A stretch of DNA of 64,000 nucleotides from Acidobacteriota bacterium (GTDB lineage Bacteria; Acidobacteriota; Terriglobia; Acidiferrales; UBA7541): the NCBI GenBank assembly GCA_003165465.1, contig PLUM01000113.1, positions 37,196-101,195 on the forward strand. The letters run 5' to 3'. Below the pieces are notes generated by a model. It saw nothing but the letters and a program-made list of their open reading frames with translations, made no database searches and was not told the DNA's origin. Of this stretch, positions 34,442 through 48,140 are shown in pieces. How positions within the stretch are numbered: position 1 is the first letter of the stretch; each line of letters starts with the position of its first letter. Made by a program: the position numbers and the translations under genes.

Positions 34442-34619
34442 GATTAGGTGCGGGGAGGAATTTTGTCCAATTCATCGTTTCGATGGAATGAATCGGATTT
34501 CATGCATTCATAAGGAAACGGAAACACTGGGAAGAAGCGAAAAACACGCAACAAATGGCGACCATACTGCTCGCGCTGAAACTTTCTTGCGTGGACTCGT
34601 GGAAAAAGTCCACCAGATC

Positions 34620-34710
34620 TTTTGTCATTCCGAGCGAAGCGAGGAATCTCTCTTCGATTGAAGCCGAAGAAAAGAAAGAGAGATTCCTCGCTTCGCTCGG
34701 AATGACAAAA
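34620..34710. repeat. Family A dispersed inverted repeat, best-conserved copy
   Basis: TTTTGTCATTCCGAGCGAAG followed by CGAGGAATCTCTCTT (34620-34654) is matched by its complement at 34676-34710: 35-base arms identical throughout, with a 21-base centre. Such a hairpin can terminate transcription from either side, here between accDA and the polysaccharide locus. Confidence 0.88.
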
Positions 34711-34725
34711 GGATGGGTGGAAATC

Positions 34726-35589
34726 TTATGCGGACTTTCTGGGAGCGAACCTGACCGGCGATTGCACGTGCAGGCCGGGCATTGCGTCCCTCCATCCGGC
34801 GGAGGGAGCCTGTAAACCAAGAACGGTTCGCGCGAGAATTTCAATGTCCGAGATAAATGTACGGGACCTCGCATACTGCAGCGACATTTGCAGTTTGACG
34901 GGCAGGATTTCTTCGATGTACCGCTCCTCGATCGAATTTCCGTGAAACAACCGCTCTTCATTCCGGAAGCTCAGCGACGCCAGATCCGTAATTCCCGGCG
35001 GCGTTTTTAAAAGCTCTCCATATTCAACGGCATATATTTCAGCATATTTCTCAACCTGGGGCCGCACACCCACCAATTGCATCTCGCCCTTCAACACATT
35101 CACGAGTTGCGGCAGCTCATCCAGCTTGTATCCGCGCAGAAAGCGGCCAACGCGCGTGACTCTCGCATCCCCGGGCAATGTCAGCAGGCCGCCGCAGGCG
35201 GAACTGCAAAACATGCTTCTGAATTTGAGGAGTCGAAACTTCCGAAAGCCCTTGCCGACGCGCGACTGTGAATAAAAAACCGGGCCGCCGTCGTTGAGCT
35301 TGATCGCCACGGCAATCATCGCAAATACGGGCCCCAAAACGACAAGCCCCGTCGCGGCACATGCGATGTCAAACGCGCGGCGCGCAAGAGGCTCGTGAAC
35401 CGGCGCCGTTTGCGAAAACGCCAAACGCGCGTCCACGGTTCTCGCGGCTCGCCGGGATTGCTTCCGGCCACGAGCCGGCTCGCAATCAATCTCAGCAGCC
35501 GTCCGTATGACGCCGCCCGCATCGCAATCCAAAATATTTGGACGCGGCGGCGGGGGGAAAACCCTTCGCCGAGATTCGCAATTCGCCAT
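34726..35589 (-). CDS. Polyprenyl-phosphate sugar-1-phosphate transferase (bacterial sugar transferase)
   Basis: About 287 residues if the ATG at 35589 is used. Residues about 85-260 form the bacterial sugar transferase domain: a membrane re-entrant helix ([20 protein letters not shown]), then [47 protein letters not shown] and [12 protein letters not shown]. It starts repeat-unit assembly by loading a sugar phosphate onto undecaprenyl phosphate. The initial N-terminal membrane bundle of WbaP-type proteins is absent, so it is a short form. It is the last gene of the polysaccharide operon. Confidence 0.9.
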
Positions 35590-35661
35590 GGGGGATCCTC
35601 CGGCCGGCAACCGCTTTCTTCGCGGCCATGCCGGCGCAAATGGATTAGGGATGGGTCAGGC

Positions 35662-36729
35662 TTATCTTGTAATGGCCGAAAGAATTTTCCGCGCCCGATT
35701 GGGACGGTCCCAAGCCGCGGGCCGATACAAGAACGCCAAAAGAGAACCAAACGCGTAAGACAAATGATAGACAGCGAAAACCACAGGCATGAACGGAAGG
35801 AACTTCCATCCCTTCCGCATGGCAACCGAAAAGGCCGACGGCAACGACGCGATGAAATACACGCCCACTAACGCAAGCCACTCATCGAGAAATATTTTTC
35901 GCCACCAGGCCGATCCGCCAAGACTCGCTCCCACCGCGAACATCGGCAAAATGGCTCCGGCGAGCACGGACGAACCAGGTACAAGATTCCCCCAGGAGGT
36001 GATCCGACGATGCTTCCGAATGATGGCAACTTTCCAGAAACCGTACTGAAAGTTCTGCCCAAATAGCCCTGAAAGGCTGGATCTGGGCCAATACCAGGAA
36101 GTGATTTTAGGCGACTGCCACACGGTTCCCCCGCAGGAAACAATCCGCAAATTCAATTCAAAGTCCTCGCTTCGGACTAGTCTTTCATCAAACTCGCCGA
36201 TGCGCTCCAGAGTGGACTTGCGCCAGCAGCCGTATGGCACGGTGGCCACCGAGCCTTCGTATCGCGAATCGTGAAACTTAGCACCGCCTCTGGCAAATGA
36301 CGTGTGATAGGCGTGCGCGATAGTCTGCGCAATATAGCCGTTTGCTCGAGTCAATGCCGGGCCACCCACATTGTCGGCTTTGGTTTCATGGAGCACTTCA
36401 ACACAGGAGCGCACATAGTCCGGGGCATAAAGAGTGTGAGCGTCCATGCGAATGATGATTTCTCCCTGGGCTTCGCGGATCGCCCGATTCAGAGCCGTCG
36501 AAACGATTTGTTCGGGATTGTCGATAACACGAAGCGTTGCAAATCGTTTCTCATATTCGCCGAGGACCGGCCGCGTCCCATCGTCGCTCATGCCATCCGC
36601 GATCAGAACTTCCATATCGATCCCTCCAAGCTCCTGGCTAAAAACAGAATCGAGAAACGCGCGGATGTGCCGGATTTCATTCCGGCACGGGACAACCACT
36701 GAAACATGGACGGCTTGGCTTTGCGGCAT
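35662..36729 (-). CDS. Family 2 glycosyltransferase
   Basis: From the ATG at 36729 (AAGGAA box) 355 residues. The GT-A catalytic domain starts with VSVVVPCRNEIRHIRAFLDS, has the metal-binding region IIIRMDAHTLYAPDY and an acceptor region YGCWRKSTLERIGEFDERLV. Two to three C-terminal hydrophobic stretches suggest membrane attachment. This resembles succinoglycan ExoA-like transferases. It extends the polyprenyl-linked repeat unit in the cytoplasm. Confidence 0.9.
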   Translation of the reverse strand: MPQSQAVHVSVVVPCRNEIRHIRAFLDSVFSQELGGIDMEVLIADGMSDDGTRPVLGEYEKRFATLRVIDNPEQIVSTALNRAIREAQGEIIIRMDAHTLYAPDYVRSCVEVLHETKADNVGGPALTRANGYIAQTIAHAYHTSFARGGAKFHDSRYEGSVATVPYGCWRKSTLERIGEFDERLVRSEDFELNLRIVSCGGTVWQSPKITSWYWPRSSLSGLFGQNFQYGFWKVAIIRKHRRITSWGNLVPGSSVLAGAILPMFAVGASLGGSAWWRKIFLDEWLALVGVYFIASLPSAFSVAMRKGWKFLPFMPVVFAVYHLSYAFGSLLAFLYRPAAWDRPNRARKILSAITR

Positions 36730-36798
36730 GGGCTTTTCCTTTCCATCAGGCGAACGTGAGATCACAAAATGAAATTTTTACGGGGACGAAAGATGAGA

Positions 36799-38106
36799 TT
36801 ACGAATGTTGCGCGAACGGCTCGCATGCCAGCGAGTGATCTTCTCCTGCGGCGATTTCCACATCATCTCTTTCGCGCATACCGACGACCGCCACGGCGAG
36901 AGACACCGCAATGGTCGGCAGCTTTTCCCAATAGAGAGTGGACAATCCGAAACTATCGAGGGCGAGAGCGAAAGTCAGCGCCAGGATCAAAGCTCCCTGC
37001 GCCTGAAATGGCGGTTTCCCATAGAGATCCCATCCGGCGCGGACGAATTGAAACATGGCAGCCAGGAACAGGAGCAAACCGCCCAAGCCCAGTTCGAGCC
37101 AGATCGTGAGGTAGGCATTGTGCGAGCGGCCCTCACTCCCGATCAGAGTCAAATAGGTTAATTCCTGCCCAAAACCCTGGCCGATGAAAGGTTGCGTTTC
37201 AATGGCGCGAAATGCCATGTGCCAGCGTTCGAACCGGTCACTGAAACCTTCTCCGGTGGTTACGTTTACGGTCGTGGCGCCTTCCATCAGTTGAGGATCC
37301 CGCGAATGCAGATACAGCATGGCGCAGAGACACGCCACGGCGAACACCATGATCCACTTCCAGCGGCGCTCCATGCAAAGAAACAGGACGAACCCTGCCG
37401 CAATGCTCAGGCTCGTCCCGCGTACAAACACGAGCGCGGGCACCAGCGCGAATCCCATGGCGAGACATGGCCAGAGAATTCCGTTTACCAATGTTTTTGG
37501 AAAAATAATCACACCCAAGCCAGCGCCGAAGACAAGCAATACGGCGGCCTGACCGATCGTATTGGGATTCCATGTGTCGAATGTGGCGGCGCTCTTCCAT
37601 TGCTGAAAATTCGCGAAATTATTCGACGAACTTGTACCCAGATGCAGAAATACCTGGATCGCGAGGGCAACACCGGCGCACATCAATCCGGCAACGAAGA
37701 ATCGGAGCCTTCTCTCCGATTGCACAAGTCGAGGGAGAACAAAAACAATAACGGCGCATCCAGCCATTTTCGCCGATTCATAACCACCGGGTGGCGTTCC
37801 CTGCGCCATCTCCACAATGATCGACAAAAGGCAAGCCGCAAGGAATAGCGCTTGCCACGCGAATATCTTTTTCTGGCTTCGGGAAGCCGGAACCGGCGAC
37901 CACAGAATGGTGCGCGCAAAAAAGAGCAGGATCAGTATGTCATCCGGACGAATATTGATTGTGGACCCGAGGGGAACGGCAAGGTCGGGAAACCCAAGCG
38001 TGAACGCATAAAGAAACAGGCCATACTCGGCCTTCGTCCAAAGAATCCCCAGTATGATCGGAATTCCTATGCCGATTTCAAACCAAAGTATGGGTGTCGG
38101 AACCAT
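36799..38106 (-). CDS. O-antigen polymerase/ligase family membrane protein (Wzy-like)
   Basis: Protein of 435 residues with about ten predicted membrane helices, e.g. FEIGIGIPIILGILW, VIFVLPRLVQ and LLLFLAAMFQFVRAGW. A large periplasmic loop near residues 285-350 ends in the family motif VTTGEGFSDRFERWHMAF, then IGQGFGQELT and GRSHNAYLTIWLELGLGGLL (the Wzy_C/O-antigen ligase consensus). In this cluster it most likely polymerises repeat units, since a flippase and a chain-length regulator accompany it. Confidence 0.85.
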   Translation of the reverse strand: MVPTPILWFEIGIGIPIILGILWTKAEYGLFLYAFTLGFPDLAVPLGSTINIRPDDILILLFFARTILWSPVPASRSQKKIFAWQALFLAACLLSIIVEMAQGTPPGGYESAKMAGCAVIVFVLPRLVQSERRLRFFVAGLMCAGVALAIQVFLHLGTSSSNNFANFQQWKSAATFDTWNPNTIGQAAVLLVFGAGLGVIIFPKTLVNGILWPCLAMGFALVPALVFVRGTSLSIAAGFVLFLCMERRWKWIMVFAVACLCAMLYLHSRDPQLMEGATTVNVTTGEGFSDRFERWHMAFRAIETQPFIGQGFGQELTYLTLIGSEGRSHNAYLTIWLELGLGGLLLFLAAMFQFVRAGWDLYGKPPFQAQGALILALTFALALDSFGLSTLYWEKLPTIAVSLAVAVVGMRERDDVEIAAGEDHSLACEPFAQHS

Positions 38107-38145
38107 GGCGATTGCCTATAACCCCGCAGCTTGAAGTGCAGGCCT

Positions 38146-38670
38146 TCACTTGACAAGTTCGATGCGCGACTTTTTCTGAATGACGCGTGCGGGGACGCCG
38201 CCCGCCATCGTAAACGGAGGAATATCATGGGTGGCCACGGAATTGGCCGCGAGGAGAGCGCCGCGTCCGATGACGATGCCCTTCGTGACCGTCGCGTGGG
38301 CCGCGATCCAAGCCCCCTGGCAAATGCGAATCGGCGCGAGATTGCTCAGACCAAACCGGTACGATCCGTCGATTTCCGTATGATCCCCCGCGGCCAGCAC
38401 GGCGTATGGCCCGAGTTGCACCTCGTCCTCCAGGACTATTCCACCCGCGGCATTCAGCCAGCAGCCCATTGCGAGAAAAACATCGCTGCCGATTTCCAGG
38501 CGATTCGTAAAGTTGACGGTCACGCGCCGAGCGACCTGAAGATTTCGTCCGCAACTCTTGAAGGCGGGCCGCAATAAAAATCCGCGCAACCGCAGGACAG
38601 GGCTCAGGTCGGGCAACCAGCCTATCGCGAGGGTGATGAAATGGAACCAGAGATATTGGAGCATTCGCAT
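38146..38670 (-). CDS. Left-handed beta-helix acetyltransferase (WcaF-like)
   Basis: From the ATG at 38670, 174 residues. Hexapeptide repeats occur in the C-terminal half, e.g. GSDVFLAMGCWLNAAGGIVL, EDEVQLGPYAVLAAGDH and GAWIAAHATVTKGIVIGRGA, ending with AGVPARVI. It should add an acetyl group to the polysaccharide. The gene starts 11 bases after the GT4 stop. Confidence 0.9.
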   Translation of the reverse strand: MRMLQYLWFHFITLAIGWLPDLSPVLRLRGFLLRPAFKSCGRNLQVARRVTVNFTNRLEIGSDVFLAMGCWLNAAGGIVLEDEVQLGPYAVLAAGDHTEIDGSYRFGLSNLAPIRICQGAWIAAHATVTKGIVIGRGALLAANSVATHDIPPFTMAGGVPARVIQKKSRIELVK

Positions 38671-38680
38671 GGTTTCACTC

Positions 38681-39883
38681 CTATTCCTGCGGGATCGCCG
38701 CTCTCTCGGCGCGCGCATTCGCATTCAGTTCTCTAAGCACAGCAGAAATGAATCGATCGAGTGTTTGCTTGCGGGCCGCCGCGTAGCCGTTGCGAATCAG
38801 CGAACGGCGCAGGCCGCCGTCACCGATCACGCGTTCGATGGCACGGGCCAAAGCCCGCGCATCTTTGGGAGGGACGAGCAACGCGTCGTATCCATCCGTG
38901 ACGGCTGTCGGAACGCCTCCGACCGTGGTGGAAATACACGGCAAACAGTTGGCTCGAGCCTCAACTAAAACATGTGGCGTACCCTCGGAAAGCGTTGGGA
39001 GAACCAATAGATCAGCGGCACGCATGCGGTCGAATAAGGGTTTGCCGTACGGCACGTAGCCATTCCAGTGGATGCGCTCGCGAATGCCTCGCGTGGCGGC
39101 GAGGCCGTCCAGTTTCTCGGCGTAGCCCGGAAATTCACGCGGTCCCGCGATTTCCAGCTCCCACGGCACATCCGTGCTGAGATGAGAGACAGCGTCCAGC
39201 AGATATTCAATTCCCTTCTCGGGACGGACGAAACCAACAAAAAGAATTCGCACGATTGGGCCCTGGCACGTATCGGTGCGCGGGAAAAACTCGCTCTCCT
39301 GGACCGTGCTCGACACGATCTCGGTTGTTCTGGGAGATGCGTGGGCGCGCGCCAGTTCCCGGCCGTTACAAATCAACGACCCGTTCGTGAGCCATCGCCC
39401 AAGGCGCGTGAAGAACCGATCCTGCAGCGCATACAAAAGGGCGAAGGTATCGAGCACACGTCCTTTCCTCCCGCTGGTTCGCAATAAGGTGACAGGATCG
39501 CCGACAATCCAATGGCAAATTGGTTTGTGAAAAATCATGGCGCAAAGGTACAGCATCGCCGTGTAAGGGCACATTCCCCGAACAAATAGAACGTCGGCCC
39601 GCCGGCAGGTTCGAATGTAGGCGCGCGCGATTCCCAAAAAATGGGGTAACGATCCGGCGGTTGTGCTCCAGGGAGGTTGCTCGACGAATTCCAGGTTCGG
39701 CGCATTCAGCGGAATATCGAACGGCGCGGGAGGGGCTTCATGCACGACCCTGCTGCAAACGCAGACCTTGTCATAATGCCCGGCAAGCGCTTCGGCGACC
39801 CGCCCGGAGGCCGACTGCATATAGATTTCCCCCGCGCTGGAATAGGCGCGAACGGGCGTAACGTATCCGAGGATTCGGCTCAT
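38681..39883 (-). CDS. GT-B glycosyltransferase (family 4)
   Basis: Protein of 400 residues. The N-terminal domain has SSAGEIYMQSASGRVAEALA; the C-terminal nucleotide-sugar domain shows VRILFVGFVRPEKGIEYLLD, the GxxP-like NGYVPYGKP and the E-x7-E-type motif VLPTLSEGTPHVLVEARANC, then GGVPTAV. It transfers a sugar from a nucleotide donor to the growing lipid-linked unit. Confidence 0.9.
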   Translation of the reverse strand: MSRILGYVTPVRAYSSAGEIYMQSASGRVAEALAGHYDKVCVCSRVVHEAPPAPFDIPLNAPNLEFVEQPPWSTTAGSLPHFLGIARAYIRTCRRADVLFVRGMCPYTAMLYLCAMIFHKPICHWIVGDPVTLLRTSGRKGRVLDTFALLYALQDRFFTRLGRWLTNGSLICNGRELARAHASPRTTEIVSSTVQESEFFPRTDTCQGPIVRILFVGFVRPEKGIEYLLDAVSHLSTDVPWELEIAGPREFPGYAEKLDGLAATRGIRERIHWNGYVPYGKPLFDRMRAADLLVLPTLSEGTPHVLVEARANCLPCISTTVGGVPTAVTDGYDALLVPPKDARALARAIERVIGDGGLRRSLIRNGYAAARKQTLDRFISAVLRELNANARAERAAIPQE

Positions 39884-39920
39884 TATGAATTACAGATCAT
39901 TGTGAATTACAGAAACAGTC

Positions 39921-41240
39921 TCACGCGGGAGTCCGCGAATATCGCAACCGCAATGCGGCCACCTGCTGAACAAACCGCCGGACATTCCCCGCTCCAAACG
40001 GCCAAAATTGGAGCGGCGAGACCCTCAACCATTTTGCGGCGGCCACAATCAGCGCGAGCAACTGCACGCAGGCGCTGATCCAAACCGCGAAGGCAATTCC
40101 CACAAGCCCGAATCGCCGCAGGAAAAACAGCGCCGTGAGCGCCATGGCTCCGGTTCCGAGCAACTGGCTCACGAGCCCCGCATGAGGACGCCCCGCGCCC
40201 CGCAATCCTTGATTCAGGATGTTCGCCAGGGCCGTCAAGGACGCGGCCAGAGCCAACACTACGGCCGGCCAAACGGCGCGCGCGAATCCGAATCCAAACA
40301 GAGGAGTGACGAGGAACGGGATCGCGCTAGACAGCGCCAGCCCCGCGCCGCAGGAAACCAGCGCGGATTGGCGAAAGGTTTCGGTGATGATCCTTGCCCG
40401 GCTCCCTGCATTTGTTTCATTCGAAAGAACGGCAAACGATGTGATTCCCAAAGCTTCGCCCAGGGAAGACTGTCCGCTGGCAAAGGCCCCGGCGACGGCG
40501 TAAATTCCGGCGGCTTCCGCATGGAACAGGCTTACAACCAGAATCGTATCGAGTTGAAGCGAGATGAGATTGCCGATGGTCGCTCCAAAAAAGGGCACGC
40601 CCGCGCGCAATAAATGTTGGCAGCCGTCCAGCCTCACTTTTCCGCCGGCGAGCGATCTCCGGTGAATCCAAACACGCAGGATGACAGCCAGCAGTTGGGC
40701 GACGAGAAACGCCGCAACGAACCACCGCACCTGGACCCTCCGAGTGACGCCAATACAACCGATGAGGATGAGGTAAAAGAGGGAGAACGAGAGCCGCAAA
40801 ACATTGTAGCGGCGCCAGCGCATGCGCCCGTGCTCAACGGCCAGAAGGATTTGATTGAACATGTCGAGCGGAATGAGCAGCAGACATAGTCGCGTGACCG
40901 GAATCAAGTAAATCCTGTCCGACGGCAACAGCACTGGCACCAGGAAATAGCCAATCAAGAGATACAGCAAGGCCGTTGCCAGCCCGACCGCGACGCCACA
41001 CGAAACCCAATCGCCTTCCCTTTCGGGGTCCTTGGCGACTTCCCGCGCGAGAACCCAGTTGCAGCCCATCAATCCCACGTTGCTCAAAATCGTGGGCCAG
41101 AGGATGACCGTGGCGAGTTCGCCTCTGGCCATTGGCCCCAGCAGGCGCGCGCTCGCAATGCCGGTAAAAACTCCGCAAGCCTGGATCGTCAGGCTCGTTG
41201 AAAGCGTTCCGAAATTGGCTTTGGAAAAAATCACGCGCAC
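39921..41240 (-). CDS. Oligosaccharide flippase (Wzx-like, MATE/MVF fold)
   Basis: Protein of 439 residues with about twelve to fourteen hydrophobic segments. The N-terminal pattern SLTIQACGVFTGIASARLLG followed by PMARGELA is typical of polysaccharide flippases, as is LTALANILNQGLRGAGRPHA in the second half. It moves lipid-linked repeat units across the inner membrane. It starts ten bases from the end of the BY-kinase gene. Confidence 0.88.
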   Translation of the reverse strand: MRVIFSKANFGTLSTSLTIQACGVFTGIASARLLGPMARGELATVILWPTILSNVGLMGCNWVLAREVAKDPEREGDWVSCGVAVGLATALLYLLIGYFLVPVLLPSDRIYLIPVTRLCLLLIPLDMFNQILLAVEHGRMRWRRYNVLRLSFSLFYLILIGCIGVTRRVQVRWFVAAFLVAQLLAVILRVWIHRRSLAGGKVRLDGCQHLLRAGVPFFGATIGNLISLQLDTILVVSLFHAEAAGIYAVAGAFASGQSSLGEALGITSFAVLSNETNAGSRARIITETFRQSALVSCGAGLALSSAIPFLVTPLFGFGFARAVWPAVVLALAASLTALANILNQGLRGAGRPHAGLVSQLLGTGAMALTALFFLRRFGLVGIAFAVWISACVQLLALIVAAAKWLRVSPLQFWPFGAGNVRRFVQQVAALRLRYSRTPA

Positions 41241-41249
41241 TTCTACGGA

Positions 41250-43565
41250 CTATGCCGGGCCGATTGAACCATTGGTGGACGGCCAAACGTAATAAGACCG
41301 GTCGTTCAACGAGGAGTCGAGATTATTTAGAACGACCCCAATCAGATTTGCTCCCACCAAACGCACTTGCGATTCCGCGTACTGAACAACCTGGCGGGGC
41401 GTCTCTCCCGCTTTTACGACGAGGATCGTTCCGCCGACCATGCTTCCCAAGATCCGGCTGTCCGCGCGGCTAAGAAGCGGCGGCGAATCCAGAATCACGA
41501 AGCGATAGGTCTCCATCGACTCTCGAATCAGAGCCCGCATTCGGTCCGAGGAGAGAAGTTCGGAGGGATTCTCCGGGACCGGGCCGCAATGCAGAACGTG
41601 GAGGCGACTGACCGGAGTCGGGTAAACCATTTCCTGCCACGTGCCCTGGCCCGCGAGATAGCCGCTCAACCTGGACTCTTCCTGGGGAAAATATTTCTGA
41701 ATGCCTGGACGGCGCATATCCGCATCGATCAGGAGGACACGATGATCGAGTTGCGCCAGCGAAAATGCCAGATTCACGGCCACCGTCGTTTTTCCTTCGC
41801 CGGGCTGCGCGCTGGTCACCAAAATGGAATTCGCGGAACGTCCGGAAGCGGAAAGAATCACCGATGTTCGAAGTTCCCGAAAAGCCTCCGAAAAAGGCGA
41901 CCCGTTGTAAATTGCCAGATCGTTCCGGGAAGAACCTTTGACCGGCGCGACGCCCGCCGCACCGCCTATCGCCATGCGCGAATCGGCCAAGCCGAACATT
42001 GGCGCCCGATCCATGCGACCGATGTTTTTCGGTTTCTTTCCATTCAGCGCGGCCATTGTGGGGATATAGCCCAGTGCCGGAACTCCCAAAAAGTGAAACA
42101 CATCTTCGCCATGCCGAATCGTCTGATCCAAATGTTCCTTCAGAAACGCCATGCACACGCCCAGCCCCAAGCCGAGAAACGTCGCCAGCCCTAAATTGAG
42201 AGGATAATTTGGCGCAATCGGCTTGTACGGCACGGTTCCCGGGTCCACGATCCGTATGTTGCTGGCCTTCAGGCCGGCCGAGACGCCCGCTTCCTTGAGC
42301 CGTTGCAGCAATCCCTCGTACAGCCCTTTATTGGTGTCCACCTCACGACTCAGGATTCCGTACTGCACGGACTTTTCGGCCATGCGGTTGGCCTCCGCCT
42401 CATTTTCCGCGAACGCCTGCCGCACTAATTTTTCGCGCTGTACCGCGACGGTGTAATCGTTCGTGATTTTCCGCGCCGCGCGTCGGCGTTCCCGGTCGAG
42501 CGACGATTGAATTTCCGCGATCTGGCTCTGAATTTCCCTGACTTTCGGGTAGTCTTCCGTGAACGTGGCGGCGAGTTGCGCGTGCTCCCGCTGAAGGTCC
42601 GCGAGCCGGACGGTGAGGTCCTGCAACAATTTATTTTCAAATACGCCCGGCAGCGATCCGTAATCCCCCGCTTGGACGAGCCGATAGACGGACTCCTTCT
42701 CAAAGCGGTCGGCCTCGGCCCTGGTCAGCTCTTCCTGTATCTCGCGAACGCTCTGGTTGACGATGCTTTCCGCGTCTCCCTTGCCCGTTTCGAGATAGAG
42801 GATGCCGTTATCCGCCGCATATTTCTGCAAATCGTCTTCCGATTTTTCGAGCTTGGCTTTCAAGTCCTGCAACTGCTGTGATAGCCAGACGGAAGCTTTT
42901 TGCGCGGCGTCCCAGCGCGCTTCGAAGTTTTTCTGGATGTAGTTTTCGACAACCGCATTCACCGTCCGCGCCGACAATTCCGGGTCCTGCGAATCAAAGC
43001 GCAGCTCGACAGCGCGGCTGCGCCGGACCGGACGGACATCCAACCGGTCCTGAAAACGCGTGAGAACGACTTCCCGAACCGACCGGTCGGGAAACGATGA
43101 AGACACCGGAGCCGCACTCACACTCCACGGCCAGACATAGGTGGAAGGCAGGAATTCGGCCTGCCGGTCCAGGCCAAATTGATGAATGACGCGTTCCGCC
43201 AGATCGTCGCTGGCGAGAACCTTGTACTGCGTTTCCAGGTAGGCGTCGGAAACTTCATCCAGTTGAAACAGCTCTTGCGGGTTGGCGACGCTGGGATCTT
43301 CCTTGTCGATCTCGATCAGCGCTTTGGCCCGGTACACGGGCTTCTCTTTCATGCTTCCGATCAGGACGACTCCAAATAGCACCAAAAATGCCGTCAGAAC
43401 CGTCCAGCGGCGCTTTCGAATCACTCTCCACCACGCCACCATGTCGGGTGGCTTTTCCATCGTTGCCGGGCGGATTGGCCCCTGCGGCGAGCGGCGGCGT
43501 TCCACGCGAACCTCGCGTGGCGTGAACACTTCCATTTTGTTTTGGTCGTTCCCGTCTGGAGTCAT
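41250..43565 (-). CDS. Polysaccharide chain-length regulator fused to a BY-type tyrosine kinase (Wzc-like)
   Basis: Protein of 771 residues. A Wzz domain has a first membrane helix near residue 55 (WTVLTAFLVLFGVVLIGSMK), a long periplasmic coiled-coil region and a second helix near residue 470 after the proline-rich PGTVPYKPIAPNYPLNLGLA. The cytoplasmic kinase domain carries Walker A (SAQPGEGKTTVAVN), Walker A' (VLLIDADMRRP) and Walker B (FVILDSPPLL). The C-terminus has only a YY pair rather than a tyrosine cluster, so autophosphorylation may be reduced. It sets chain length and couples to the Wza-like protein. Confidence 0.93.
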   Translation of the reverse strand: MTPDGNDQNKMEVFTPREVRVERRRSPQGPIRPATMEKPPDMVAWWRVIRKRRWTVLTAFLVLFGVVLIGSMKEKPVYRAKALIEIDKEDPSVANPQELFQLDEVSDAYLETQYKVLASDDLAERVIHQFGLDRQAEFLPSTYVWPWSVSAAPVSSSFPDRSVREVVLTRFQDRLDVRPVRRSRAVELRFDSQDPELSARTVNAVVENYIQKNFEARWDAAQKASVWLSQQLQDLKAKLEKSEDDLQKYAADNGILYLETGKGDAESIVNQSVREIQEELTRAEADRFEKESVYRLVQAGDYGSLPGVFENKLLQDLTVRLADLQREHAQLAATFTEDYPKVREIQSQIAEIQSSLDRERRRAARKITNDYTVAVQREKLVRQAFAENEAEANRMAEKSVQYGILSREVDTNKGLYEGLLQRLKEAGVSAGLKASNIRIVDPGTVPYKPIAPNYPLNLGLATFLGLGLGVCMAFLKEHLDQTIRHGEDVFHFLGVPALGYIPTMAALNGKKPKNIGRMDRAPMFGLADSRMAIGGAAGVAPVKGSSRNDLAIYNGSPFSEAFRELRTSVILSASGRSANSILVTSAQPGEGKTTVAVNLAFSLAQLDHRVLLIDADMRRPGIQKYFPQEESRLSGYLAGQGTWQEMVYPTPVSRLHVLHCGPVPENPSELLSSDRMRALIRESMETYRFVILDSPPLLSRADSRILGSMVGGTILVVKAGETPRQVVQYAESQVRLVGANLIGVVLNNLDSSLNDRSYYVWPSTNGSIGPA

Positions 43566-43569
43566 TTAT

Positions 43570-44688
43570 TCACCACTTGTAGATAGCGACGCCCGCGGCC
43601 GTCTGCAGTGCGGCTTCCGTGCCCCTGTAGAAAACAGTCTTGGCCGCGCTGTTGGGGACAAACACGATGTCTTTTGGCTGCAGGTAGATGTCAGCCGTTT
43701 TACCGGAAAGAATTCTGCCGAGGTTCATTGCAATTTCGATGCGCTTTCCGGTGGCCGGATCGGTGCGCACAATGCGAGCATGGTTTATTGCCGAAGTGTG
43801 CGTCGTGCCCTCGGCCAGGGCGAGCGCCTGCAGCACGGAAATATTTTCATTATTCTGCAACACAAATCCGCCCGGCTTCCGGACCTCTCCCACGACGTAT
43901 ACGATTCCGGCGCGGGGCACTTTCACGATGTCTCCGGGACGGACTGGCACATTCAAGGCGGAGTCGGCCGACTCCAGCAATTGCTTGAGGTTAATCTCCT
44001 CGATGGCGCTGTGATTTTCCCGCGCCGCCGATTGCTCGTCCGAAGGTTGCCCGCCCGAGGGTTTGACGCCATCGTCAACGAAACGGTCCGATTCGGAAAA
44101 CCCGGCGCCGCGCATGATGAGTACTGTTTCGCCCGCGTCATCCGCGAGACCTTCCGCCATCGAAAGCACCTCGATCACCGTCTTCGTTCCTCGAATCTGA
44201 AAAACTCCCGGCATTTTCACTGCGCCCACCACCGACACCGGATGGCTTTGCAGCTCCCGGACGAAAACGCCGGCGTGCGGATCCTTCATGTACGTCCGGC
44301 GCAACAGTTCCTGCAGAACCGTTTCGAGTTCCCGGGGCGTCAGTCCGCCGGCATGTACAGCACCCAGCAATTGAAGGGAAATATCGCCGCTGGCCGAGAC
44401 ACGCACAGTGCGGTTCATGTCCGGCGCTTCGAAGATGGTGATGTCCAGCAAATCGTCCGGGCCGATACGGGATTCACGGGCCTGAATCGCCGATGTGGCC
44501 GCGGCCAGTTTTTCGCGCTCCCGTTGCAGGCGCTCGTTGACTTCGGCCGTGGTTTGCGTCCGGGGCGGAGGCTGAGCGATTCCGCTTGCCAGGTTTTGTG
44601 CGCGCACGGGAATCGCAATCGGAAATAATGCGACCGTAAGAATTGCCCGCGCCACACCAGCCAGTGGATGAAAACGATTCAAGCTCAC
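43570..44688 (-). CDS. Polysaccharide export protein (Wza-like, SLBB domains)
   Basis: Protein of 372 residues with a signal peptide (ILTVALFPIAIPVRAQ). The Poly_export domain follows (IGPDDLLDITIFEAPDMNRT, then VRVSASGDISLQLLGAVHAG) and two SLBB-type domains, one with HPVSVVGAVKMPGVFQIRGT and one with GIVYVVGEVRKPGGFVLQNN. No lipobox cysteine is present, so it may not be acylated like E. coli Wza. It forms the outer-membrane export channel together with the neighbouring co-polymerase. Confidence 0.92.
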   Translation of the reverse strand: MSLNRFHPLAGVARAILTVALFPIAIPVRAQNLASGIAQPPPRTQTTAEVNERLQREREKLAAATSAIQARESRIGPDDLLDITIFEAPDMNRTVRVSASGDISLQLLGAVHAGGLTPRELETVLQELLRRTYMKDPHAGVFVRELQSHPVSVVGAVKMPGVFQIRGTKTVIEVLSMAEGLADDAGETVLIMRGAGFSESDRFVDDGVKPSGGQPSDEQSAARENHSAIEEINLKQLLESADSALNVPVRPGDIVKVPRAGIVYVVGEVRKPGGFVLQNNENISVLQALALAEGTTHTSAINHARIVRTDPATGKRIEIAMNLGRILSGKTADIYLQPKDIVFVPNSAAKTVFYRGTEAALQTAAGVAIYKW

Positions 44689-45824
44689 GACGACCCAACC
44701 TGTTCCGAACGGATTTGCGCCGTGCGCCCGGTCGAATGGAGTTCGCCGGCAATCGCGTGGGAACGGTGCCTGAATTTTTCAGACATTTTGATGCCTGCCG
44801 CGATCAGTGGTGCTTCCACCATGTGATAGAGCGCGACGGAAAGAGACACGAGCGTCGCGGCGAATATCGCGATTTGCAGCCCGACATGCAAGCTCCGGCA
44901 AACCGCAAACGCGATCCAGATCGCGAAGTAGTGGAGCAAATAGATTCCGTAGGAATATCGCGCGATTTCCCCGGTCAGGCGCGTGAGCGCATTTTCCCGC
45001 ATCTCACGAAAGAAACACACTCCCACACCGATCGTGAAGCATACGAACCACCCGGTCTCGATCGGCTGGTTGCCGGAGAGCCGCATGAATGCGGCGCAAC
45101 ACAGCGCCAGGAAAACAGGCCAGCACGCCGCCGGAAACAACCGGGGCTGGCGCCACAGTTTGTAGGCCACAATCCCCGGCAGAAAACACGGCGCGAATCG
45201 CGTGAATTTCAGGAGCGCTTCCGCCGGGGACCGGATGCCTCCTTCGCTCAGCGGCAGCATGCCCGTGGAAAATCCCACGGCAAACCAAAGCGCGACGGCC
45301 GACCACCAGAACGCAATCGTTCCCCATGCCGATTTCACACGCGACGCGAAAAGAAATAGCGCGGGCAACGCGACGTACATCTGAAGCTCGAGCGGCAAAC
45401 TCCACAAAATTCCGGGATTCGCTTTCTGGCGGGTCACATTCTGAACGAGCAAAAAGTTTGCAAGGAAGTTTCCCGCGGACTGGCGCATCAAATGGAATCC
45501 GCCAAATTGCAAGTCCGACGGAATCCGGAACAAAAAAACAAATGTGACGACCACGATGGCCAGCGGATAGATGCGAAAACACCGTCGGATCATAAAGGGA
45601 ACAAACAGCGAAGCGCCCGCCGCGCTCTGCCGCTCCAGCGAAAACATGAGCACGAGCGTCGTGTGCACAAAAAAGAGCATCACCCCGAGCAGCCCAAAAT
45701 CCGTGACCCGCACGTCCGCAGACCTCCAGTTAAAGAATTTCGCCAAGTGGAAGCCCACGACGAGCGTCACGGCAAACGACCGAAGCAGATCGAGGTTGCG
45801 GGAGTTTGTGGTTACTCTTTTCAT
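44685..45824 (-). CDS. Acyltransferase 3 family membrane protein
   Basis: Protein of 379 residues with about ten hydrophobic helices. The N-terminal RNLDLLRSFAVTLVVGFHLA and later ILWSLPLELQMYVALPALFL match the acyltransferase 3 (OafA/NodX) signature; the conserved histidine lies in the first helix and the arginine/glutamate pair in the second block. It O-acetylates or succinylates the polymer. Its stop overlaps the next start by four bases (ATGA). The position as first biosynthetic gene after the antiterminator gene is notable. Confidence 0.9.
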   Translation of the reverse strand: MKRVTTNSRNLDLLRSFAVTLVVGFHLAKFFNWRSADVRVTDFGLLGVMLFFVHTTLVLMFSLERQSAAGASLFVPFMIRRCFRIYPLAIVVVTFVFLFRIPSDLQFGGFHLMRQSAGNFLANFLLVQNVTRQKANPGILWSLPLELQMYVALPALFLFASRVKSAWGTIAFWWSAVALWFAVGFSTGMLPLSEGGIRSPAEALLKFTRFAPCFLPGIVAYKLWRQPRLFPAACWPVFLALCCAAFMRLSGNQPIETGWFVCFTIGVGVCFFREMRENALTRLTGEIARYSYGIYLLHYFAIWIAFAVCRSLHVGLQIAIFAATLVSLSVALYHMVEAPLIAAGIKMSEKFRHRSHAIAGELHSTGRTAQIRSEQVGSS

Positions 45825-45838
45825 GTAGCACGAGTCTT

Positions 45839-45915
45839 TAGTAGCGCGGGCTTCAGCCTGCGGGGTTTCGTCCTTGCAAAGATTAACCCCCGCAGGCTGA
45901 AGCCCGCGCTACTTA
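45839..45915. repeat. Family B-like inverted repeat inside the polysaccharide operon
   Basis: TAGTAGCGCGGGCTTCAGCC followed by TGCGGGGTTT pairs with AACCCCCGCAGGCTGAAGCC followed by CGCGCTACTTA. The arms are about 30 bases with a 16-base centre. It lies between the antiterminator gene and the first biosynthetic gene, so it could be a regulated terminator. Confidence 0.8.
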
Positions 45916-45918
45916 CCC

Positions 45919-46500
45919 CTAGGCGGAGGCGGAAATTGGCAGCGGCAATCCTGGCGCCAGAAAGGGCCCGATTCTCTCCACATTCGAAACATCGATCTCG
46001 ACTGCGGCGGACCGGCCGAGCATCTCCATGGAAACGACCAGCCGGGCCACACCCTTCTGACGAATGAGCATTCCTTCCAGTCCCATCAAAGGGCCCGTTT
46101 TGACCCTCACACGATCTCCACGTTGCAAAAACGGATGCGTTTCAACGGCAAGGCGGCTTTCGACCATCTGCCGGACGGCATTGAGTTGCGACTGCAGAAC
46201 AATTTCCGGATGTCCGCCCCATCCCACGATACGAACGATTCCGGGCGTGGTGAGTATGGGAAGCTGGCGATCCATCCCCTCGCAGATAAACACGTAACCG
46301 GGAAACAACGGAAGCCATAAAACCTTCGCGCGATCCCGCCATCGGCGCAGAGAACGATAAAGGGGAAGGTAGATTTCGTAGCCCTTATTCGACAGCGCCA
46401 GTGCGACGGATTTCTCATGCTGGTGGTGCGTAAAAAGTGAGTACCAGTTGGAGGCAAGGTTCGCGCGCTGAATTCCGATTTTCGTATCCGCCAAGTGCAC
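45919..46500 (-). CDS. NusG/RfaH-family transcription antiterminator (UpxY-like)
   Basis: Protein of 193 residues. The N-terminal NGN domain has NWYSLFTHHQHEKSVALALS, NKGYEIYLPLYRSLRRW and LPLFPGYVFI; the C-terminal KOW domain has FLQRGDRVRVKTGPLMGLEG. UpxY-type specialised NusG proteins are usually the first gene of a capsule or exopolysaccharide operon and let RNA polymerase read through long, Rho-sensitive units. That is exactly its position here. It is likely to act on its own downstream operon. Confidence 0.93.
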   Translation of the reverse strand: MHLADTKIGIQRANLASNWYSLFTHHQHEKSVALALSNKGYEIYLPLYRSLRRWRDRAKVLWLPLFPGYVFICEGMDRQLPILTTPGIVRIVGWGGHPEIVLQSQLNAVRQMVESRLAVETHPFLQRGDRVRVKTGPLMGLEGMLIRQKGVARLVVSMEMLGRSAAVEIDVSNVERIGPFLAPGLPLPISASA

Positions 46501-46867
46501 GTAGCTCCGCCGTTTGACTTACGGGAAGGTCCGTCCCAAAACGCCGGAACTTCTATATTAGAGGACCGTCCCAATTCGCGCTCGATATCCGCGCCACGCC
46601 AACCGATCCAGCGCGGTCCGTTGCAAATTAGTTGCAACTTTCCATAAAATCCGAGGAGCACAGTAGACATTCCCCCGCGACCAAACAATAGGCAAGACGC
46701 CCATTCAGCCCCCAATGACAATTCGCCGGACGCACTCATGACAGACATACTTTCCCGCACGGGCGATTGTGCCCCGTCAATAGTCACGTTTAGTGACAGA
46801 TAACCACGAATATCCTTGCCTCATAAAGCAGTTTCGTGTAGGCTCTTTAACAAATGTGGGGTTATCC
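46501..46867. promoter_or_regulatory. Divergent control region of the polysaccharide locus
   Basis: No gene lies in these 367 bases between the antiterminator and the LuxR-type regulator. Three candidate sites are visible: a 19-base inverted repeat GTTGCAA-ATTAG-TTGCAAC (46620-46638), a direct repeat CCGTCCCAA (46531-46539 and 46565-46573, 34 bases apart), and a TCAC-GTTTA-GTGA inverted repeat near 46782-46794, next to the LuxR gene. These may bind the LuxR-type protein encoded to the right. Confidence 0.45.
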
Positions 46868-47575
46868 ATGAGTCAGTTACCTCAACCGCGGAGAGGAAGC
46901 AGCATCAGCGTCCTGATCGCGGACGCGGATCGCATGAGCGCGCACCTGATTGCGGACGGCCTTACCCGCAGCCGCCATGACATCAGCGTGGTCGGCGTTT
47001 CCAACAGTTCCGACGAAACCATCCGGGAACTGGAAAGGATCCGGCCCGACGTCGCTCTGATTAACGCGCACCTTGAAGACGGCCAGCTGAAGGGTTACCA
47101 CGTCCTGCAATACCTGCAACTGCTGCCTCGCAAGACCGTTGCCGTGATGTTGATTCCCATCTCCGAGCGAGAACTGGTGGTCGATGCATTTCGGGGCGGC
47201 GCCAGGGGAGTTTTCTGCCGCCTCCAGTCCATCAAATTGCTGCCAAAATGCATTCGAACTGTGCACGAAGGACAGATCTGGGCGGACGCACGGAATTTGG
47301 CCTTCATCCTTGATTTCATCACTACGCTCAAACCCTTGCGGCTCATCAAATCAGGCGGCGGAATGGCGCGGCTGACGCCCCGGGAAGTGGAAGTCGTCCA
47401 TCTGCTGGCCGAAGGATTGAGCACGCGCGAGATCAGCCAGAAACTAGCCGTTACCGCGCATACAATTCGAAATTATCTGAGCGCGATCTACGAAAAACTT
47501 GGCGTCTCCAGCCGGGTCGAACTGGTTCTCTATGCCGTGGCCCGCGAAAACCTCGATAGCCCATTGGCGGATTAA
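46868..47575 (+). CDS. LuxR/NarL-type regulator with degenerate receiver domain
   Basis: From the ATG at 46868, 235 residues. Residues 13-130 have the receiver fold (SVLIADADRMSAHLIADGL, VVGVSNSSDETIRELERIRP), but the phospho-acceptor aspartate is Asn66 (DVALINAHLED), and the conserved Thr/Ser and Lys positions are replaced by Leu-Ile and Arg. Residues about 170-228 are a canonical LuxR HTH (LTPREVEVVHLLAEGLSTRE, then VTAHTIRNYLSAIYEKLGVS). It therefore probably responds without phosphorylation. It is divergent from the polysaccharide operon and is its likely regulator. No kinase gene adjoins it. Confidence 0.9.
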   Translation: MSQLPQPRRGSSISVLIADADRMSAHLIADGLTRSRHDISVVGVSNSSDETIRELERIRPDVALINAHLEDGQLKGYHVLQYLQLLPRKTVAVMLIPISERELVVDAFRGGARGVFCRLQSIKLLPKCIRTVHEGQIWADARNLAFILDFITTLKPLRLIKSGGGMARLTPREVEVVHLLAEGLSTREISQKLAVTAHTIRNYLSAIYEKLGVSSRVELVLYAVARENLDSPLAD

Positions 47576-47750
47576 GCAGGCGACGCCCGAGGTTCTTCCC
47601 TTTCCATGCACCAGGATTAACCCCGTGTACTTTGTTCCCTGAATTCCCCCGGCAATCGATACAATCATGACAATCATGCGGAGGCGCGATGGATGCGCTA
47701 CCGCGCGGAGCGCAAGCGATGGCCGGAAACGGCCGGGGAGAAAGCCAAAG

Positions 47751-48140
47751 ATGAGCCATTCGGACCGGTACGAACGCGGACTGGCGAAATTCGTGGAAAT
47801 GTACGGAGAACGGGCCACTGCATTTCTCCGATCATTCGAAGGGATTGCTCCCGATCTGGGAACATACGTCGTGGAATTTGGCTTCGGAGACATTCACTGC
47901 CGTCCCGGGCTTAGTCTGCAATCCCGCGAAATCGCGACAGTCGCCGCGCTCACTGCGCTGGGCACCGCGGGGCCGCAACTTCGCGCGCACATTCACGGCG
48001 CGCTGAACGTGGGCTGCTCGGAACAGGAAGTGGTCGAGGTCATCATGCAGATGGCCTTGTACGCGGGATTTCCGGCGGCCATCAACGGCATTCAGGCCGC
48101 GCGCGAAGTTTTCCTGGAGCGCGGTCATCGTGCAGGATGA
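47751..48140 (+). CDS. Carboxymuconolactone decarboxylase-family protein
   Basis: From the ATG at 47751, 129 residues, one CMD domain: [20 protein letters not shown], the acidic-helix region [20 protein letters not shown] and [20 protein letters not shown]. Only one cysteine is present, so it resembles 4-carboxymuconolactone decarboxylase (PcaC) more than the CxxC-containing AhpD peroxidases. The role in metabolism is not clear from context. Confidence 0.85.

Follow-up and report, generated by a model that had tools for sequence, protein, structure and literature searches.

The locus analysed here raises the question of how a LuxR-type regulator can be controlled when its receiver domain lacks the phospho-acceptor residue, and which genes such a regulator controls. 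It lies in a stretch of 64,000 nucleotides (hereafter the window) of an Acidobacteriota bacterium, whose source assembly comprises 4,617,235 bases in 121 contigs and is 89% complete. An earlier note, made from the DNA alone, had described a LuxR protein with a degenerate receiver facing a polysaccharide operon, and had read the pair as a two-tier switch with initiation by the LuxR protein and elongation by UpxY. The regulator gene and its parts were located as follows.

46868–47575, + strand: LuxR/NarL-type regulator gene, intact open reading frame from ATG 46868 to stop 47575, 235 aa
46904–47272, + strand: N-terminal pseudo-receiver domain, residues 13–135, by alignment
47063–47065, + strand: AAC codon, Asn66 at the phospho-acceptor position, by sequence and alignment
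47363–47542, + strand: C-terminal GerE/LuxR helix-turn-helix (HTH) domain, PF00196

The HTH is canonical, as the earlier note had stated: PF00196 (GerE) scored 62.3 bits against a Pfam cut-off of 23.5. The Pfam Response_reg model scored 26.5 bits, under its cut-off of 30.2. Alignment to a canonical paralogue of the same genome gave D19, A20, N66, I96 and R118 as the receiver quintet of the window protein. Only one of the five catalytic residues (D19) is retained, and the protein does not have the phosphorylatable quintet of a NarL/FixJ (LuxR) response regulator. The replacement of the acceptor aspartate by Asn66 was confirmed by this alignment. The two further losses counted in the earlier note are real, but their number was too low, since three residues are changed (A20, I96 and R118). 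The model for EpsA, the XrtB-associated LuxR regulator (TIGR03020), matched the window protein over the HTH only, with 31.6 bits against a cut-off of 170. An AlphaFold model of the protein was poor (mean pLDDT 55, from a 4-row alignment) and was left out of the fold searches. The closest named record carrying the gene is an Acidobacteria MAG with 77% identity; a record labelled Terriglobales is more distant.

The polysaccharide operon was found as the earlier note had described it, divergent from the LuxR gene and led by an UpxY gene. It consists of nine genes on the − strand (34726–46500, 11.8 kb), given here in the order of transcription.

45919–46500, − strand: UpxY-family NusG paralogue, first operon gene in the window, NF033644 at 113.3 bits (NCBIfam cut-off 100), PF02357
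44685–45824, − strand: acyltransferase, PF01757
43570–44688, − strand: Wza-type polysaccharide export protein, Pfam scan
41250–43565, − strand: Wzc-type chain-length/tyrosine kinase, Pfam and NCBIfam scans
39921–41240, − strand: Wzx-type flippase, Pfam scan
38681–39883, − strand: glycosyltransferase, group 1, Pfam scan
36799–38106, − strand: Wzy/O-antigen ligase-like protein, Pfam scan
35662–36765, − strand: glycosyltransferase, family 2, Pfam scan
34726–35610, − strand: phosphoglycosyltransferase (Bac_transf), Pfam scan

The XrtA/PEP-CTERM exopolysaccharide (EPS) models for export, chain length and kinase remained below their NCBIfam cut-offs (105.2/180, 146.2/278.85 and 149.7/230.65 bits). 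No family match to an UpxZ-like partner was found among the nine operon products scanned with Pfam, the neighbours of UpxY being the LuxR and acyltransferase genes. An overlapping reading frame (46107–46787, − strand) had no Pfam match and was taken as spurious.

A further element, missed by the earlier note, separates upxY from the acyltransferase gene and was identified by repeat count and RNA folding.

45840–45913, no strand assigned: REP-like inverted repeat

As RNA, this element folds with −68 kcal/mol, against a shuffle mean of −35.8. Its core, GCGGGCTTCAGCCTGCGGGG, occurs in 135 half-sites of its own genome (70 forward and 65 reverse, one mismatch allowed) and in none when read backwards as a control; many of the copies are paired inverted arms. 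Since the arm core is so frequent, the element is REP-like and not a purpose-built attenuator. The hairpin might be a barrier which the UpxY-modified polymerase has to pass. A second long inverted repeat was seen just 3′ of the operon (34609–34721), with 46-nt arms that are 91% complementary and carry TCATTCCGAGCGAAGCGAGGAATCT.

To place the LuxR protein among its relatives, homologues were collected at three levels. The family search gave matches in 40 of 89 genomes (E ≤ 1e-30), the order search in 28 of 95 (E ≤ 1e-36), and the phylum-wide search in at least 5 of 396, with the first 7 candidates per genome scored. We took 40 places besides the window (E ≤ 7.3e-39), and as controls 16 weaker matches and 4 further places in the window's own genome; a further 9 loci came from outside the family, within the same order and class. 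Among the 16 weaker matches, L089 had degenerate catalytic residues and was reassigned to the clade set. The final sets were 50 clade loci besides the window (n = 51 members with it) and 19 canonical controls.

The acceptor aspartate is lost in all 51 clade members (Ser in 32, Gly in 8, Asn in 7, Ala in 2, Thr in 1 and Cys in 1). The receiver Thr/Ser is lost in 50 of them, and the receiver lysine is replaced by arginine (R118) in 45, whereas the aspartate and the lysine are both kept in 19/19 canonical relatives. Two positions, D71 and G72, are shared specifically within the clade, each in 40/51. Response_reg was detected in all 14 members scanned, as expected of a receiver fold without the aspartate, and the GerE HTH was found in the window protein and in the same number (14/14). 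The 51 degenerate proteins form one group with a support of 100/100 and require one change on the tree; the pseudo-receiver clade has a single origin. When the window protein was compared with its closest relative, the receiver gave a dN of 0.107 and a dS of 1.1 (dN/dS about 0.1), and the receiver dN was lower than that of the HTH (0.146). The pseudo-receiver is under purifying selection and is conserved rather than decaying. Selection on the whole receiver, together with the conservation of D71, G72 and R118, suggests that a surface or pocket of the domain is in use. That the LuxR protein would act independently of phosphorylation, as the earlier note had supposed, is well supported by the loss of the aspartate throughout a clade in which the domain is maintained. 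Clade members were seen in three families, all of a single class of acidobacteria. Paralogues within one genome occupy separate EPS loci, and the members would seem to be assigned largely one per EPS cluster.

The genes beside the regulators were then compared in fetched flanks of up to about 8 kb, which often end at contig edges. Among the 50 clade loci besides the window, a PilZ gene was found in 31, UpxY in 29, Wza/Wzc in 27 and any of these in 38; among the canonical controls, PilZ of the same kind, UpxY and Wza/Wzc were each found in 0/19. The Fisher value for any marker gene, clade against controls, is 3.1e-9 and serves as a guide only, because the loci are related and such values overstate their independence. 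Eleven of the clade loci supplied the seeds of the PilZ profile, so that 20 of the 31 PilZ matches fall outside its seed set. The PilZ gene is divergent from the LuxR gene in 26/31 loci, and in all 24 loci with both PilZ and UpxY it lies between LuxR and UpxY, nearer LuxR; UpxY is therefore not the usual first gene. Of the 31 neighbouring PilZ proteins, 28 carry the motifs RxxxR and D/NxSxxG, and Pfam PilZ was detected in the four neighbour proteins scanned, in two of them above the cut-off. By profile and motifs, the neighbour gene of the relatives has the features of a PilZ c-di-GMP receptor, a gene which is absent at the window locus.

The association has exceptions. No marker gene was seen at 12 of the 50 clade loci. 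Seven of these 12 (L063, L070, L082, L119, L120, L122 and L123) have none despite at least 4.8 kb on the PilZ/UpxY side, and four of the seven belong to another family of the class. Of the nine loci from other families, which were outside the set from which the idea was formed, four have at least one marker gene; one (L118) is a short contig, and the remaining four (L119, L120, L122 and L123) are without markers. PilZ is not obligatory, since UpxY occurs without it in the window and at five other clade loci. The distance matrices of LuxR and PilZ (Spearman 0.34, 0/2000 permutations) and of LuxR and UpxY (0.25, 7/2000) are correlated, but this correlation is weak evidence because species kinship was left in. 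Taken together, gene order across many loci supports a functional tie of the LuxR protein to UpxY/EPS clusters.

Two other neighbours were seen in the flanks. Near the canonical LuxR gene of 15/19 controls (L085–L101), a different, weaker-scoring PilZ gene lies 0.7–4.5 kb downstream on the same strand, which weighs against a simple reading of the association. At two loci of one subgroup (L050 and L057), a long protein is encoded downstream of LuxR, its start 782 and 755 bases, respectively, from that of LuxR; by eye it has an AAA ATPase-like part and a C-terminal amidase-like part.

The comparison was also made in reverse, from UpxY. Across six genomes, 23 UpxY-type genes (E ≤ 1e-12) were counted in the genus, and 8 of these stand beside a pseudo-receiver LuxR gene. 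None of the other 15 same-genus UpxY loci has a pseudo-receiver LuxR gene in place or a PilZ gene of the clade-neighbour kind; one of them (L152) has a weak fragment, and a canonical LuxR gene at a distance of about 9 kb. UpxY thus has other settings as well. Within the genus, PilZ of the clade-neighbour kind goes with the LuxR protein, and the window locus is the exception. No PilZ gene was found in the window spacer, and the only PilZ gene of this kind in the window's own genome, in an assembly that is 89% complete, is at the other LuxR locus. To judge from these comparisons, the window locus probably belongs to a clade member that has lost its PilZ gene.

If the LuxR protein acts on the facing operon, its binding site might be sought in the spacer, where we listed the following features.

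46501–46867, no strand assigned: spacer of the divergent genes, which holds a PilZ gene in relatives and none here
46527–46579, no strand assigned: pair of 18-nt direct repeats (starting at 46527 and 46562, 83% identical), not seen in relatives
46783–46797, no strand assigned: candidate operator GTCACGTTTAGTGAC, a palindrome that fits GNCACGWWTNRTGAC and was recognised post hoc; the form lies upstream of the LuxR gene at 5/5 same-genus loci
46816–46842, + strand: possible LuxR promoter element TTGCCT ... TGTAGG, by eye against three loci (L045–L047)

The earlier note had reported several inverted and direct repeats here and had offered them as binding sites. One direct pair does stand out, being matched in only 2 of 300 dinucleotide shuffles. 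The inverted repeats do not: the one perfect repeat, with 7-nt arms (46620–46638), was equalled or exceeded in 74/300 shuffles. As binding sites the repeats found no backing, since they are not conserved; by eye, the spacer aligns with that of same-genus relatives at its two ends only. The gap is longer in these relatives because the PilZ-domain gene sits there. A search of the spacer DNA against its own genome returned nothing besides itself, and the possible promoter element at 46816–46842 was not detected by a consensus scan.

The palindrome GNCACGWWTNRTGAC occurs at 40 places in six genomes and its reversed control at 2, in a count whose pattern was derived from the same LuxR loci. It is often inside open reading frames and is also present in a genome (G085) in which no relative was found at E 1e-30. 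When the pattern was rebuilt from the other four loci, the window site had 2 mismatches, which is the chance level. The palindrome at 46783–46797 may serve as a lead to a candidate LuxR-binding site, and a weak one. One operator common to 41 upstream regions was sought and rejected; the best exact spaced dyad was present in 3 of them, and shuffles reached 1 to 3. At six loci (L059, L062, L064, L066, L072 and L079), the region from a possible −10 element to the start of LuxR contains, by eye, a CACCCTTCCAGA-like stretch, perhaps a conserved leader. Two inverted copies of GTCACGTATGGTGAC, 23 bases apart, were found in each of two genomes (G084:C4:283169-283206 and G083:C110:24549-24586), the pair in the former 117 bases upstream of a reading frame for a PEGA-like protein.

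We consider it fairly probable that the LuxR protein serves the facing EPS operon as its dedicated transcription factor, works independently of phosphorylation and comes from a clade ancestrally paired with PilZ. The dimeric HTH would bind the divergent spacer and set initiation of the EPS operon, and perhaps also that of its own gene. UpxY would then load on RNA polymerase and allow read-through of the 11.8-kb operon, including the hairpin after upxY. The input would be other than aspartate phosphorylation. For most relatives, c-di-GMP would be the most likely input, sensed by the PilZ protein encoded nearby, which could touch the pseudo-receiver or act in parallel. With the local PilZ gene gone, the LuxR protein of the window genome may be constitutive, its amount being the control, or may respond to a different ligand or to the single further PilZ protein of this kind found in the genome. 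The two-tier switch of the earlier note would be compatible with the data and is incomplete, since a PilZ gene intervenes in the relatives and only 8 of the 23 UpxY genes of the genus stand beside such a LuxR gene. A bolder version would be a three-part switch, in which PilZ would sense c-di-GMP and control initiation by docking on the pseudo-receiver of the divergently encoded LuxR protein, UpxY would control elongation of the same operon, and some loci, including that of the window, would later have become blind to c-di-GMP. We regard this version as speculative and rather doubtful. If it were true, the pseudo-receivers of the clade would have lost phosphorylation because the PilZ partner took over the input, and loci such as that of the window would have become c-di-GMP-blind by a later loss of PilZ.

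It is worth noting that there are other possible interpretations. The signal could enter only through the promoter of the LuxR gene, the protein being a ligand-free activator or repressor that is constitutive or controlled by expression. The PilZ gene is absent in the window and at five other clade loci that keep UpxY, the candidate palindrome lies just upstream of the protein's own promoter at the five same-genus loci, and such regulation is described for other pseudo-receivers (PMC12632262). The purifying selection on the whole receiver and its conserved D71, G72 and R118, however, suggest that a surface or pocket is in use, and we hold this interpretation to be unlikely, though not implausible. 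It is much less likely that the LuxR protein itself binds c-di-GMP and activates the EPS operon directly, in the manner of VpsT. The domain plan, the degenerate receiver and the EPS setting are the same, and the family profile matches, among other solved structures, that of VpsT (3kln, E 3.3e-15). DevR, DesR and NarL, however, match more closely. The c-di-GMP motif of VpsT is W[FLM][TS]R, and it was found in 0/51 clade members, in which the site reads WANS, WASN, WADA and similar; from these residues, direct binding as in VpsT appears unlikely.

The target could also be another gene, with the adjacency to the EPS operon incidental. A carboxymuconolactone decarboxylase-like gene (47667–48140) lies downstream of LuxR, and it follows LuxR in the window and at three of four same-genus loci, the fourth (L048) having 8 bases past LuxR. 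No match to this gene was found beyond the genus, against 38 of 50 clade loci with PilZ, UpxY, Wza or Wzc, and it is very improbable that it is the true target. We prefer the reading in which the EPS operon is the target of a phosphorylation-independent regulator.

Literature searches of the open-licence part of PubMed Central listed no description of the LuxR-PilZ-UpxY arrangement. The clade resembles the biofilm regulators VpsT and CsgD (FixJ/LuxR/CsgD family) in combining a degenerate receiver with a LuxR HTH over matrix genes; it differs from VpsT in that all 51 members are without the c-di-GMP motif and in that its neighbour is a PilZ protein. A close parallel is the type 3 fimbria locus of Klebsiella pneumoniae, where, according to PMC3161979, a PilZ protein (MrkH) and a LuxR-superfamily HTH regulator (MrkI), which is without the VpsT motif, are encoded together beside a surface-structure locus. 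There, however, the structure is a fimbria and not EPS, mrkHI are co-transcribed and not divergent, no UpxY is involved and MrkH itself is the main activator; the two systems are likened here without sequence comparison.

A precedent for a PilZ protein that alters the DNA binding of a transcription factor is TssZ of Pseudomonas aeruginosa, whose binding to the regulator HinK prevents the latter from binding DNA (PMC10912698). HinK, unlike the LuxR protein, is of the LysR type (LTTR boxes), and the contact is on its DNA-binding part.

In a 2025 review (PMC12632262), bacterial pseudo-receivers are likewise receiver folds without phosphotransfer residues that are controlled by level, partner or ligand. 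Known inputs are covalent modification, change of multimer, ligands and partners, and the on/off switching is still called a mystery. Acidobacteria, LuxR, PilZ and UpxY are not mentioned in its text. Unlike the pseudo-receivers reviewed there, the acidobacterial clade has a consistent genomic partner. Its loci can be compared as replicates provided by nature, in which a candidate partner (PilZ) and a target (the adjacent EPS operon) recur and from some of which, as in the window, the partner has been lost; this makes the input question directly testable.

The UpxY proteins of Bacteroides capsule loci are also NusG paralogues in polysaccharide operons, several per genome (PMC7593976, in which no mention of Acidobacteria was found), and the UpxY model was passed by the NusG paralogue of the window. 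Unlike those loci, the window operon has no UpxZ-like partner among its scanned products, and instead a divergent LuxR gene, usually with a PilZ gene, is found. These comparisons suggest that acidobacterial polysaccharide loci may be equipped with control genes specific to the locus, in the way that Bacteroides capsule loci have UpxY and UpxZ.
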